The notes beneath the pieces were generated by a model that ran no database searches, was not told the origin of the DNA, and was given only the letters and a program-made list of their open reading frames with translations. From NCBI GenBank assembly GCA_024684515.1, contig JAIKWS010000035.1:42178-106177 (forward strand): 64,000 nt of DNA. Reading direction: 5' to 3'. Shown in pieces: positions 4,719-43,412 of the stretch. The position numbers and the translations under genes are program-made. Source of the DNA: Prevotella sp. (GTDB lineage: Bacteria; Bacteroidota; Bacteroidia; Bacteroidales; Bacteroidaceae). Within the stretch, counting starts at the first letter, position 1. Every line of letters begins with the position of its first letter.

Positions 4719-4806
4719 TCCGCCCTGCCTAGGAACAAAATATTCCCACCTTGGGAATATTTTGTTCCCAGCCTGGGAAGAAATTATTCCCACCTTGGGA
4801 ATACAT
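4719..4806. repeat. Array of 22-bp-period palindromes (TTCCCA-N3-TGGGAA cores)
   Basis: TTCCCA starts at 4743, 4765, 4787 (exact 22-bp spacing), degenerate unit at ~4721; 4732-4768 is a perfect 17-bp-arm hairpin with 3-nt loop. Confidence 0.85.
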
Positions 4807-4901
4807 TTTTCGTAAGATTCCCAAGTCTGACGGAAGAAAACCAACCTCTGCTAGATAGTAACTCTTTCTGACAATAATACAACTGCTAAGCATTTTTCAT
4901 C

Positions 4902-19726: not shown

Positions 19727-19836
19727 CCAGTGCACTCCAGTTTTTTTTCCAGTGCACTCAAAATATTTTTCCAGTGCACTCAAAATTTTTCTACAACGCA
19801 CTCGGGAATTATTTGCTGTGCATTCTAAAAATCACC
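19727..19836. repeat. Array of 22-bp-period units with AGTGCACT palindromic core (5 units, decaying)
   Basis: GTGCACTC-like cores at 19730, 19752, 19774, 19796 (GCACTC), 19818 (GTGCATTC): exact 22-bp spacing. Confidence 0.88.
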
Positions 19837-33843: not shown

Positions 33844-36231
33844 CTATTCGCTTGTTATGCTGTTGACGGGGTTTTCATTGGCCGTACGCCAGCTTTGTAC
33901 GACGATGGTGGTCATCGTGACCAAGGCCACACAGAGCATGGCCAGGGGGAATATCCACCAGTAGATGGGTGTCCGTTCGGCAAAGTTCGACAGCCACTGT
34001 CTGCCGATATGACAGGCCAGTGGTGCTGCCACGGCAAAGCTGACAAGCAGCAGCCAGACATAGCGACGGCACAGCAGCCCGAGTATCTCACCTGCCGTAG
34101 AGCCCATCACCTTGCGGATGCCTATCTCCTTCCTCCGGTACTCAGTCTCGAAGAGAGTCATGCAGAATACACCTATCAGGGTGATTGTCAGGCAGATGAA
34201 CGAGAAGACCATCACCTGGCGGATGAACCGGAACTCCTCCTGGTAGGTCTCCTCCAGCATCTGGTCAACGTATCTCGCATCGGGTTCGTGGGTGGCTCCC
34301 ATCTTCATGCACAGCTCCTTCACCTGCTGCCGCACCTGCTGTTTGTCACAGCCTGGTGCCACTCTGACGTTCATCACCCCAAGGTTGTTGGTCCATCCGT
34401 TGCTCAGGTAGGTCTCCCCATAGATGACGAAGACCAGTGGCAGCTCGTTGTTGTCCATTCGTGTGGAGCCGAAACGCACATTACGGCATACCCCCACCAC
34501 GGGGAGCTCCCCCTCGTTGTCGAGCAGCTTCTGGTCCATCTCCACCCAGTCCCACTGCCTGCGTGCTGCCTCGTTGATGATGTAGCAGTCGCCATCGTGC
34601 TCGTTGAAGTCACGGCCTTCCACTACCTCGATGCCCATGGTGCGCAGGTAGTGCCAGTCCACGGGCATGGCGGTGAACTGCACATAGTGCTTCTCGTCAT
34701 CACGTCCCCATTGCATATAGGCATCCCTGCTGCCCAGTGCAAACTGCGAGTAGGCCACGTCCACGATGCCGGGCTGCTGCAGCAGTTCCATGCGCAGGGC
34801 TTCCTGCTTGTCGAGCAGCTCCCAGGTGTCCACATGCAGGATCTCGTCCTTGGCGAAGCCATAGTCCGAGCTGAAGATATAGCGGCTCTGCAGATAGAGT
34901 ATGCTGATATACACCACCATCACACAGGTGATGACAAACTGCAGGGTGAGCAGTAGCGTGCGCAGCCGTCGGCCTCGTGGCGACAGGCTATAGGCCCCTT
35001 TCAGCACCATCGAGGGCTGGAAGCTGGTGACGTAATAGGCGGGATAGGCACCTGCCGCCATGCCCACTACGACTGCCGCCATGCCGGTGACAGCCAGCAG
35101 CCAGGGATGATCGCCTATACTGATGCTGCCGATGGTCATGCTTCCTATCAACGGCCAGTTCGACAGCAACAGGCAGATGACGATGGCCACGGCATAGGCC
35201 AGCAGTGACGTCAGCACGGCCTCACCGACGATCGACAGCCGGAGCGACCTGCGGGTGCTGCCCAGCACCATGCGGGTGTTGATGCTCTTCAGTCGCATCG
35301 GACTCTCCGCCAGCATGAAATTGATGAAGTTGATGGCTGCCACCAGCAGCACGAGTACACACGCCAGCTGCAAGATCCAGTCCACGGTCCTGTTGCCCTT
35401 GTCATCCTCTGAGCTGACACCCGAGAACCATGTCTCTGACAGTGGTCGCAGCCGTACTTTCACGGTACCCCTGATTTTTTCCGGGTCCCATCTGCCCCTC
35501 ATGCCGTGGTCGATGTATGTCTGATGGAATCTCTCCAGCAGTGGTCCGACGATGGCCTGCTCTATCTCGTCGGTGTCTATCTCTCCGTTCAGCCGCAGAT
35601 AGCACATGTAGTTATAGTTCTGGTAGTTGCCCACTCCCTCGTCTCCCAGTGGGGCGTAGATGCAGTTGTGTATCAGGCAGTTGTCGGGGAAGTCCTCATA
35701 GACCCCCATCACCTGTATGCTGTCCTGTCCCAGTCGCATGCACCGTCCTGCCACCTGTGTGGAGCCGAAGTACTGCATGGCTATCGATGCGGGTATGATC
35801 AGTTGCCTGCGTGTCTCCGGTGTCCAGGTCAGTGTGCCGTCCAACAGTCGCGGTGCCAGGGTGGCCAGTGCCTCGTCGTTGGCATGGTTGCCCTCGAAGG
35901 TGACCTCCGTCATGCCCTTGCTGAAGGTCCAGTTGTTATACCAGCCCTGCATCAGAGCCATGCCCTCCACCTGTGGCAGCTCAGCGAGCAGGTCGGCCAG
36001 GTAGCGGGTCACGTTCGCCTGCCACTTGCTCACGTCCATCATGGCGGGTACCTCCACGCGGTACAGCTCATCGCTGTCCTTCAGGCCACGGTTGTACGAA
36101 TGGTTGTAGGCCACCTGCGTCAGGAAGAGATAGCAGCTGACGAAGGCCACCACCAGCCCCACGAAGTTCAGCAGCGTGGCGGTGGTGAAACGACGGCTCA
36201 TTGACCATAGGTTCTTGAATACGGTTCTCAT
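33844..36231 (-). CDS. ABC transporter permease, FtsX/MacB-like (paralog of the adjacent gene)
   Basis: TEYRRKEIGIRKVMGSTAGEIL FtsX motif; 4-TM layout; tandem with 31478-33841. Confidence 0.88.
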   Translation of the reverse strand: MRTVFKNLWSMSRRFTTATLLNFVGLVVAFVSCYLFLTQVAYNHSYNRGLKDSDELYRVEVPAMMDVSKWQANVTRYLADLLAELPQVEGMALMQGWYNNWTFSKGMTEVTFEGNHANDEALATLAPRLLDGTLTWTPETRRQLIIPASIAMQYFGSTQVAGRCMRLGQDSIQVMGVYEDFPDNCLIHNCIYAPLGDEGVGNYQNYNYMCYLRLNGEIDTDEIEQAIVGPLLERFHQTYIDHGMRGRWDPEKIRGTVKVRLRPLSETWFSGVSSEDDKGNRTVDWILQLACVLVLLVAAINFINFMLAESPMRLKSINTRMVLGSTRRSLRLSIVGEAVLTSLLAYAVAIVICLLLSNWPLIGSMTIGSISIGDHPWLLAVTGMAAVVVGMAAGAYPAYYVTSFQPSMVLKGAYSLSPRGRRLRTLLLTLQFVITCVMVVYISILYLQSRYIFSSDYGFAKDEILHVDTWELLDKQEALRMELLQQPGIVDVAYSQFALGSRDAYMQWGRDDEKHYVQFTAMPVDWHYLRTMGIEVVEGRDFNEHDGDCYIINEAARRQWDWVEMDQKLLDNEGELPVVGVCRNVRFGSTRMDNNELPLVFVIYGETYLSNGWTNNLGVMNVRVAPGCDKQQVRQQVKELCMKMGATHEPDARYVDQMLEETYQEEFRFIRQVMVFSFICLTITLIGVFCMTLFETEYRRKEIGIRKVMGSTAGEILGLLCRRYVWLLLVSFAVAAPLACHIGRQWLSNFAERTPIYWWIFPLAMLCVALVTMTTIVVQSWRTANENPVNSITSE

Positions 36232-36685: not shown

Positions 36686-36770
36686 ATACGCTCCATGAAT
36701 CGGCTCCTTCTAGCACCTCATCCACCACAAGCGCTACAAAACAGCTGGCACACCTGCACCCCTCTTTTTT

Positions 36771-36858
36771 TGAGTGCACTCAAAAAATATTTCCAGTGCA
36801 CTCAAAAAATATTTCCAGTGCACTCAAAAAATACTTCCAGTGCACTCAAAAAATATTT
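36771..36858. repeat. Array of four 22-bp units CCAGTGCACTCAAAAAATATTT
   Basis: GTGCACTC at 36774, 36796, 36818, 36840: exact 22-bp spacing, nearly identical units. Confidence 0.95.
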
Positions 36859-37409
36859 CGACCTGTGCGGTTGAAGATTGATACTTGATGAAAAAAATAG
36901 ACTTTTATCATGACCATTGGCATGAAGCTCACTGGCAGATATCACTTTAGCCAGCCGTGCGCTAGCCACGAGTGAAGGACATCGCGTAGCCACGAGTGAA
37001 GGACATCGCGTAGCCACTCCCCTCCCCTCCTCTTAGGGGAGGGGCTAGTGGTGGGGTCTACAAGACTAACTTCCTATCTGCTTGCGGGCCCACAACGAGG
37101 GCGTCTAGCTCAGGATTCCACAGGTGATGGCAAGCAATGTAGGTGTGTAGGGCTAGGTGTAATAGATAGTTCTGCAGACCCCACCCCTGCCCCATTCCCG
37201 AGCAAGCTCGCCGACCCGTAGCCTTTCCCCTAAGAGGAGGGGAGGGGAGTGGCTACGCGATGTCCGTAACTCGAGGCTACGCGATGTCCTTCACTCGTGG
37301 CTAGCGCACGGCTGGTTAAAGCGATATCTGCCAGTGAGCTTCATGCCAATGGTCATGATAAAAGTCTATTTTTTTCATCAAGTATCAATCTTCAACCGCA
37401 CAGGTCGAA
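36857..37409. repeat. Large inverted repeat: 184-bp arms 36857-37040 / 37226-37409 around a 185-bp spacer
   Basis: Arms align end to end without gaps (TTCGACCTGTGCGGTTGAAG...CTCTTAGGGGA versus its reverse complement) with a few mismatches; contains a 24-bp tandem repeat. Confidence 0.93.
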
Positions 37410-37672: not shown

Positions 37673-40117
37673 TTATTCGCGATGGTCCTGATAGGTGATT
37701 TTCTGGACTATCTGCCCAGGATCAACAATGGAAAGCGTTAGAACATGCTCATTGACAGACTTGTCGAGGGGTAGCGTCAGGACAAACTCCTTGCGGTTTT
37801 CAAGCACCTGTATCTTCCATTTGCGTCCCCATTCCCTGAAGCGGTTCTCACAGACGGCAGCCTCTCCATGGTCTATGCTGACAGCGAAGCGATTGCTCTG
37901 ATTGGCAGCGACAGGCCACAGGGGTACAACAGAGATGCATAGCGAGATGGAATCGGCATCGTGCGGCAGGGTACTGGCCGGAATGTCGATGTCAATACTG
38001 CCAGTAGCCTGCTGACTCAGTGGTTGTCCCAGCTGCAGGGCTTTCCAGTCGGTTCCTATCCCGTCGAGCAGTCGGAACGGCTCTGAGATGGCTAGCGATG
38101 TGAGGTCAATCTTGTGCCGGAACTGCGGATGGCGCTGGTTGTCAGGCAGTTTGTAGGCATCTGTGGGGCTGTCTGTGTACGCAGGCATCTGATGGTAGAG
38201 GGCGGTATAGCCTGGCGTTATCTCCGGAATCATCTGGTTCCATTTTCCGTCGAGCTGTGTATTGTAGCGGTCCATCAGCTCCTGCAACTGCCGACAGGCA
38301 TCCTGCGACTGCTGTGCAAAGGAGCGGTTGCCCGTCTCGTGGTTTGCCTGTGCATAAAGGAACTTGCGGTTCATCTGATAGGCCGAGAGCACAGCATATC
38401 CCAGCATCTCGAACAGGGCATGTCGAAGCTCAGGAGCCACTTCGCGTTCGATGCCCTCGTAGGCGAAACAGATGTTCTGATAGTCCACGAGCCGCTGCTG
38501 TGCCGTTCCTGTCTGGAATGAGAAGTCAGTATCGTAGAGCTGGCAGTATGCTGTCGAGTCCCATTCCATCTCATAGCCCATGAACTCCGGTTTGCGGTCC
38601 CATGCGAGACGATAGTAGTGGTCGAGGATGAACTGGAAGTCCGTCAGGAACTGCTTTCCGAAGACGCTGGCGAGCCATCGTGGCTGATAGCCGTTGGCAT
38701 TGTCGTAGCTGAACGATGTGAAGTCGTAGGCCATATCCATAAACATCTGTGTCTCTATTTCCATCGGCTTGATATCACCGACATTGAGCAGCCAGTAGCG
38801 GTCTGCCCCGGCCGTATATGCCTTGCGCATCTCCTCGTACATGAGCATGGGTGCCGTGGTTGATAGCCACAGATTGTCGTGTGGCACGCCACAGTAGCTG
38901 AGATGATAGTAGACGCCACTGCCTCCTGTGCGTTGCTGTTCGTGGTGGCTGCTCACCCGTTTCATGTAGCCATAGTTATCGTCGGGCCATACGAGTGTGA
39001 TATCATCGGGCACCCTGAGTCCGGCATCATAGATGTCGAGTGTCTCCTTGTAGGGAACGAAGATCTGCGGTATGCGACAGGCTTTGTCGTGCTTGTATTT
39101 CTCGAGGATGGCCCGTTGCTCAGCCATTACCTTTTCCAATGTCCGTGCACGGTCAGCCGGGTCTGTACTTCCCCTCATGGCTTCGTCGTGCAGTCCCCGC
39201 ATGCCCATAGTATAAATATTGTCGAAGGCAGCTGTCTCCCTGATGCGTCTGTCCAGTTTGTCCAGGATGGTGGCACTATTGGTCTCGTAGTTCCACTCCC
39301 CGTCTCTCTGCTTGTCCCATTCCGATGGTGCCGCATTGTTGAAGAGCAGCGGTTCGCAATGGCTGGTAGTAATCATGATGCCCCATTTGTCGGCCATCTT
39401 CTGACTCTCGGGATGGCTGTAGAAAGCCCCTGTGCAGGTGTGCATAGCAGGAGCCAGCATGTTGCCCCTCAACCGTAGAATCAGCTCGCAGACCCGATCG
39501 TAGGTCTTCGGCCCAATGTCGCCCAACTCCTTCTCGAAGGTGTTGGCAGCCCATGGTTTCATGCCCCAGTCCTCGTCGTTGATGAAGATGCCCCGGTATT
39601 TGACGCTAGGCGAGCAGCTGACATAGTTCTCCTGGTAGTCATAGACCGTGCTGTTGTCCTTGTCGATAGGCACATCAGCAAACCAGTACCATGGACTGAC
39701 ACCAATGGCTTCGCTGACCCGCAGCACGCCATAGGCCAGTCCCCTGGCATCCGATCCAGTGACATAAAGGTTCCTGTCTTCCGTGTCAATGGCATATCGC
39801 TCCCACGATCCCCGCAACTCCCGGTGCCTCTTGGTGTATTTCACCGTACCAATCATAATCCGTGAACCCTTGCCCCGATGGGAACTGCTGACCGGTGGCC
39901 TTATGCCCGACACCCGTTGGATATCGTCAGCCAGAACCTGAGCGATGTGCTTCACCAAGGGAGCATCAGCCTCGGAATAGACTATGACAGCCTTTGTGAG
40001 GTCTACACCCATCTGTCCGACAGCCTCTGCCTCGCTGACAGAATCCATGTTGTCCGTATGTGCCCTCGAGCCCATGCAAAGGCTCAGCAGCAGCAAAATC
40101 ATCACATATCTTTTCAT
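37673..40117 (-). CDS. GH115 family glycoside hydrolase (second paralog)
   Basis: GSDARGLAYGVLRVSEAIGVSPWYWFADVPI, KYRGIFINDEDWGMKPWA, LILRLRGNMLAPAMH, GMRGLHDEAM. Confidence 0.92.
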   Translation of the reverse strand: MKRYVMILLLLSLCMGSRAHTDNMDSVSEAEAVGQMGVDLTKAVIVYSEADAPLVKHIAQVLADDIQRVSGIRPPVSSSHRGKGSRIMIGTVKYTKRHRELRGSWERYAIDTEDRNLYVTGSDARGLAYGVLRVSEAIGVSPWYWFADVPIDKDNSTVYDYQENYVSCSPSVKYRGIFINDEDWGMKPWAANTFEKELGDIGPKTYDRVCELILRLRGNMLAPAMHTCTGAFYSHPESQKMADKWGIMITTSHCEPLLFNNAAPSEWDKQRDGEWNYETNSATILDKLDRRIRETAAFDNIYTMGMRGLHDEAMRGSTDPADRARTLEKVMAEQRAILEKYKHDKACRIPQIFVPYKETLDIYDAGLRVPDDITLVWPDDNYGYMKRVSSHHEQQRTGGSGVYYHLSYCGVPHDNLWLSTTAPMLMYEEMRKAYTAGADRYWLLNVGDIKPMEIETQMFMDMAYDFTSFSYDNANGYQPRWLASVFGKQFLTDFQFILDHYYRLAWDRKPEFMGYEMEWDSTAYCQLYDTDFSFQTGTAQQRLVDYQNICFAYEGIEREVAPELRHALFEMLGYAVLSAYQMNRKFLYAQANHETGNRSFAQQSQDACRQLQELMDRYNTQLDGKWNQMIPEITPGYTALYHQMPAYTDSPTDAYKLPDNQRHPQFRHKIDLTSLAISEPFRLLDGIGTDWKALQLGQPLSQQATGSIDIDIPASTLPHDADSISLCISVVPLWPVAANQSNRFAVSIDHGEAAVCENRFREWGRKWKIQVLENRKEFVLTLPLDKSVNEHVLTLSIVDPGQIVQKITYQDHRE

Positions 40118-43334: not shown

Positions 43335-43412
43335 CAAGTTTCAAGGAGTTTCAAGTTCCATGGGTTTCAAGTTTCAAGGAGTTTCAAGTTTCAAGGAGAA
43401 AGTTCTAAGTTC
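43335..43412. repeat. TTTCAAG-rich direct repeat (33-bp higher-order period)
   Basis: TTTCAAG at 43339, 43349, 43365, 43372, 43382, 43389; 43339/43372 and 43349/43382 spaced 33 bp. Confidence 0.75.

Follow-up and report, generated by a model that had tools for sequence, protein, structure and literature searches.

Dispersed intergenic arrays in a Prevotella genome and its relatives keep a 22-bp pitch across unrelated repeat units

Four similar 22-bp units lie between two genes in the window, i.e., the whole 64,000-nt stretch of Prevotella sp. DNA that was analysed, and end at the tip of an inverted repeat. The question raised by this locus is what kind of element the units form, and whether it is their sequence or their spacing that is kept. 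The array (array 3) and its surroundings contain the following features.

33844..36231, minus strand: MacB/FtsX-type permease gene flanking array 3 on the side away from the MITE, its 5' end 542 bp off
36762..36772, no strand: T-run forming the left border of array 3, CTTTTTTTG
36773..36859, no strand: array 3, with four AGTGCACT cores spaced 22 bp apart, spacers CAAAAAATATTTCC, T7 on the left, and the MITE tip cutting off the right border
36859..37407, no strand: MITE-like inverted-repeat element of 549 bp adjoining array 3, tips CGACCTGTGCGGTTGAAG and CTTCAACCGCACAGGTCG
37673..40117, minus strand: GH115 gene with its 3' end toward array 3, 813 bp away (about 265 bp discounting the MITE)

TRF places array 3 at 36773-36859 with a period of 22, 4.0 copies, 96% matches, and a score of 167, which is the highest among the arrays of the window. 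Read directly from the sequence, the AGTGCACT cores start at 36773, 36795, 36817, and 36839; the unit is CCAGTGCACTCAAAAAATATTT, and its 14-nt spacers are AT-rich. The near identity of the four units described in the earlier note holds for GTGCACTC, found at 36774, 36796, 36818, and 36840, but unit 1 is preceded by TTTTTTTG rather than CC, and unit 3 has ATACTT instead of ATATTT. The same note was right that the array touches the inverted repeat, as its right end is the last AT spacer and the MITE tip starts there at 36859. Borders formed by a T-run and an A-run also occur at other arrays of the same family (F1, with core AGTGCACT) in this genome. A CRISPR reading of array 3 was rejected because the spacers are not unique and the 14-nt spacers are themselves repeated. 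The window also holds an intergenic 17-bp tandem repeat, CAAGTTTCAAGGAGTTT, at 43335-43398, which does not belong to the 22-bp class.

As for the adjoining MITE, this genome contains 138 partial matches to a 566-bp query and 43 to its tip. A 22-bp recurrence is present within 120 bp of 11 of the 34 distinct tips with enough flank, whereas noncoding windows taken at random have one in 9% of cases (binomial p 0.0001). The MITE is a separate dispersed family, and its abutment is an association of two elements, not a single structure. Target preference suffices to explain it, since both the tip flanks (77% AT over the first 12 bases) and the array spacers are AT-rich, and mobile elements are known to insert into REPs as well (PMC3733652, PMC1525189). 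The MITE copy beside array 3 shows no clear target duplication. Both arms of this copy carry 24-bp tandem repeats TAGCCACGAGTGAAGGACATCGCG, at 36963-37017 and 37251-37303 of the window.

The core and period of array 3 recur 17 kb away in the window.

19729..19780, no strand: array 2, with three AGTGCACT cores spaced 22 bp apart and diverged spacers, followed in phase by a partial fourth unit, ACGCACTC

Array 3 is the more uniform of the two, array 2 being more diverged, as had been noted earlier. The proposal that both belong to one dispersed family is borne out by the genome, a 3.37-Mb draft of 140 contigs that is 91% complete and Prevotella-like (one segment has 77% DNA identity to a contig of Prevotella sp. 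UBA2711). The pattern AGTGCACT-N14-AGTGCACT forms 25 pairs at 10 loci, so that the core and period are not unique to one place. These pairs are not due to chance, since the reversed-pattern control gave 0 and about 0.001 occurrences of the 16 fixed bases are expected in the genome. A looser search added degenerate members of this type on C25, C36, and C110. The F1 arrays of this genome have no common flanks, with 2 exceptions: the adjacent MITE, and loci L007 and L009, where, immediately next to AGTGCACT arrays located on separate contigs, the right flank of the former matches the left flank of the latter over 401 bp at 97% identity. Thus, one array has been copied along with one flank.

Among 39 relatives, 23 of them of the same genus, none has the exact pattern. 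At the sites orthologous to pyrI and groEL, no AGTGCACT array is present among the relatives' sequence listed, and gene order is too different for clean empty sites; given this absence, no single array seems essential. Many same-genus genomes (L219, L221, L216, L214, and L209) have a conserved GATATTTTTTTGATTTGTTTTAGTAGATTAGTTTTTAAGTAGTTTGTTTTT block, then a hairpin and a T-run, 3' of groEL, with no Rfam match. This block was not seen 3' of groEL in the present genome, where a AGTGCACT array lies instead. In a large genome collection, the pattern has at least 108 matches, with about 60 expected by chance, and therefore only genomes with several arrays or at least 3 units were counted. It recurs in other Bacteroidales, namely, Parabacteroides sp. 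Marseille-P3160, Prevotellaceae HAN085 and RUG483, as well as RUG14161, UBA2448, Prevotella sp. UBA2711 and UBA2456, RUG10554, and others. Paired cores of this kind are also present on many Omnitrophota contigs, and AGTGCACT-N14-AGTGCACT adjoins transposase genes or remnants of ISNCY_2 type in non-Bacteroidales genomes, Desulfobacteraceae among them (L037, L047, L086, and similar loci).

The dispersal of the core might suggest that the arrays are selfish or passive REP-like repeats, which are or derive from transposon-end binding sites spread by a transposase now missing or acting in trans; the premise is that several transposon families repeat their end sites about two turns apart. IS21 ends, for instance, have repeated internal transposase sites, L1/L2 and R1/R2 (PMC11208146). 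ISNCY_2-family remnants in other phyla bear AGTGCACT-N14-AGTGCACT at their ends, some Parabacteroides arrays lie inside a GGGGCTGTC-ended MITE, the L007/L009 array was copied with a flank, and turnover is quick, with sites varying between species. However, the core in common with ISNCY_2 ends was imposed by the search pattern and is not independent, and with so many chance matches in the collection it was set aside as evidence. Most arrays of this genome show no common flanks and, by eye, no target duplications, and the several unrelated cores in one genome would need several transposases. The transposase profiles searched in this genome gave nothing above their curated cut-offs: IS21 (NF033546) reached 19.7 bits against a cut-off of 160, and IS3 (NF033516), ISNCY_2 (NF033594), and Y1/RAYT (PF01797) had no match. 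None of the four was thus retained as the agent, and their absence weakens a transposon-end origin, to the extent that an incomplete genome and a search for four families allow. We consider this origin rather unlikely.

Sequence is not what the arrays of this genome have in common, as the third array of the window illustrates.

4732..4815, no strand: array 1, 22-bp pitch with a different core, TTCCCACCTTGGGAA; family F2

According to a de novo tandem-repeat scan of its noncoding DNA, the present genome has five sequence-unrelated unit families at period 22: F1 (AGTGCACT), F2 (TTCCC-loop-GGGAA, which includes array 1), F3 (CTCACTCATAGTGAG), F4 (GAACATATGTTC), and F5 (CACGTCGTG). Period 22 is the commonest among its noncoding tandem arrays (17 of 51, with 5 more at 21 and 3 at 44), as well as in 2 same-genus genomes, G016 and G050 (11 of 22 and 4 of 8, respectively). 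Five further same-genus genomes pooled have 9 of 16 noncoding arrays at period 21-22. Gene calls came from a simple ORF/codon-usage script, and these period counts were made with a better gene caller than the first scan. In the noncoding sample of the present genome, whose contigs were selected in part for containing hits from previous searches, exact 8-mers recur at lag 22 with 199 occurrences per 10 kb vs a median of 2.3 at other lags, with harmonics at 44, 66, and 88. The peak is weaker in G016 and G050, which were sampled at even steps. Noncoding palindrome pairs number 31 at distance 22, 24 at 44, and 18 at 66, with a mean of 1.15 elsewhere, and coding DNA has no comparable peak. One 50-kb stretch of E. 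coli, taken as a control, contains a single array; the samples from other families are small, and the reach of the peak is not readable from them. Intrinsic DNA curvature was tried as a unifying feature and discarded, as the curvature given by a wedge model exceeded shuffles for some arrays, not including array 3 or families F3 and F4.

The pitch is also held where the spacers between the cores differ. In the Parabacteroides genome (G040), whose regions were picked to hold arrays, 34 of 35 core-to-core distances in the range of 15-29 bp equal 22, about half of these intervals being independent of the search, which imposed one pair per locus; neighbouring spacers show on average 5.7 differences over their 14 positions. 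All 17 distances in HAN085 equal 22, with spacers differing at 6.8 of 14 positions. Mixed cores keep phase as well, both in RUG10554 (GAGTTAACTC three times, then GAGTGCACTC twice) and at locus L296 of G040 (AGTTAACT-AGTATACT-AGTGCACT-AGTGCACT).

In-phase AGTNNACT cores of G040 have palindromic centres in 53 of 57 cases (GC 42, AT 9, and TA 2, vs AC 2, GT 1, and AG 1), although the AT-centre sites are maybe not all independent, as similar arrays recur; among isolated AGTNNACT sites, 14 of 41 are palindromic. The present genome has a larger share of non-palindromic GT centres (9 of 48). A shuffle test of the dyad symmetry of unit consensuses was significant for 4 of 18 arrays of this genome and 0 of 8 in G016, and does not support such symmetry in every family. 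Dyad symmetry is established for the AGTGCACT family and not for the whole class, and on the same evidence dimer sites are not general.

These observations bear on whether the arrays are neutral minisatellites, that is, functionless products of a replication or repair process that yields duplications of about two helical turns. Copying units keeps their length automatically, and homogenised, species-specific arrays with quick turnover are consistent with such a process. It fits less well with a spacing of exactly 22 among units whose spacers are ~45% diverged, with palindromic centres retained through double changes, and with the biased position of the arrays relative to genes. On balance, minisatellites of this kind appear quite improbable.

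Regarding that position, arrays lie between divergent genes in 2 of 45 cases vs 89 of 413 intergenic regions, each 100 bp or longer, taken as background (Fisher p 0.005, pooled over the present genome, G016, G050, and G040). They are mostly found 3' of stop codons, and in tandem gene pairs they are usually closer to the 3' end. Selection against repeats in promoters could by itself be sufficient to explain the scarcity in divergent regions.

A location 3' of genes is also what would be expected if the arrays acted at the RNA level, being transcribed as 3' untranslated regions whose long hairpins terminate transcription or protect mRNA ends. Array 3 folded as RNA has a z of −7.8, and the Parabacteroides arrays are bordered by an A-run and a T-run, like a bidirectional intrinsic terminator. 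Strong folding is, however, automatic for self-complementary units, the stem positions of F3 vary without matching changes (judged by eye), and a hairpin offers no reason for a fixed 22-bp pitch in unrelated units. The RNA reading is further weakened by the borders in the present genome, which are reversed (T-run, then A-run), so that no U-run follows the hairpin. An Rfam search of the window returned no match to a known RNA. We therefore regard an RNA-level role as unlikely.

Taken together, the results show array 3 to be one of a class of dispersed intergenic arrays that have in common not a sequence but a two-turn helical pitch (22 bp, sometimes 21). The class is present in this genome and its relatives, holds its spacing despite spacer divergence, and lies mainly 3' of stop codons. 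The arrays point to an undescribed DNA-level element close to gene ends, with a putative function there. The explanation we tentatively prefer is that they are REP/BIME-like dispersed arrays acting at the DNA level as phased sites for a putative dimeric protein. Each dyad-symmetric core would be the predicted site at which a DNA-binding protein attaches as a dimer, and a pitch of 22 bp would place successive dimers on one helix face and allow cooperative binding. The resulting protein-DNA stretch at gene ends would act in a BIME-like manner, as a boundary, anchor, or supercoil buffer between transcription units, and the number of units may change via slippage or recombination inside the arrays. 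Phased protein sites are preferred because no other explanation predicts a two-turn pitch common to unrelated units. They are nevertheless given somewhat less than an even chance, because the protein is itself inferred, the symmetry is not general, and a duplication mechanism that prefers certain lengths would give a common period as well.

A broader and more doubtful version is that a genus-wide, possibly order-wide Bacteroidales class is defined by the two-turn pitch, with each species having unit families of its own, and that what reads the geometry at gene ends, as the cores are replaced over time, may be a system that binds DNA or organises the chromosome. Should the pitch be under selection, the arrays would be the mark left in the genome by a protein or a topological constraint acting at gene ends; little is known of chromosome organisation in this major group of gut bacteria. 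If they are mere repeats, they would still explain assembly breaks and mobile-element hotspots and could be used as strain-typing loci.

Plasmid iterons are of about 22 bp, the period seen here. BvgA~P offers a precedent for the geometry, its dimers occupying one face of the DNA at intervals of 22 bp, or two turns (PMC7250471). The arrays resemble such operators in having dyad sites at 22-bp pitch, with clear palindromy in the AGTGCACT family only. They differ in location, as BvgA sites and iterons belong to promoters or origins of replication and the protein bound to them has been identified, whereas the arrays lie at gene ends and their protein is putative. The likeness to ISNCY_2-type ends, which carry the AGTGCACT core at 22-bp spacing, is pattern-selected, and in contrast to these ends and those of IS21, array 3 comprises four units and lacks both a transposase gene and a transposon body.

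In their putative mode of action the arrays come closest to REP/BIME clusters, and in appearance to BrickBuilt minisatellites. With the former they share short, palindromic, dispersed, intergenic units, often clustered and at gene 3' ends, and the 10 loci with palindromic AGTGCACT are many-copy dispersed intergenic palindromes of this sort. Unlike REP/BIME clusters, they are strictly phased head to tail at 22 bp and bring several unrelated unit sequences together; moreover, no RAYT/Y1 transposase was found in this genome, and the array 3 unit has neither a GTAG nor a CGTC tag. BrickBuilt MITEs of Porphyromonas gingivalis consist of 23-nt tandem units in a MITE; they are intergenic, vary in copy number, and have predicted long stem-loops (PMC4596501). 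The present arrays are likewise intergenic tandem units of about two turns (22 bp) in Bacteroidales, and Parabacteroides arrays within the GGGGCTGTC-ended MITE follow the same plan. However, array 3 and most other arrays of this genome lack a common leader, tail, and terminal inverted repeats, which are present in part of the Parabacteroides arrays; the MITE beside array 3 is separate, and the units share a period while differing in sequence. Each of these two classes has a tested defining feature that the arrays lack (RAYT and the GTAG/CGTC tag for REP/BIME, the common leader and tail for BrickBuilt), and the arrays are filed as dispersed intergenic repeats of a new variety. Text searches of a library of open-access papers turned up no account of arrays locked to one period in this way. 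Besides its 22-bp arrays, G016 contains 5-6 noncoding arrays of period 41 (L232-L251), and 41-nt repeats are also known from the 464/PgRS elements of P. gingivalis (PMC4596501).
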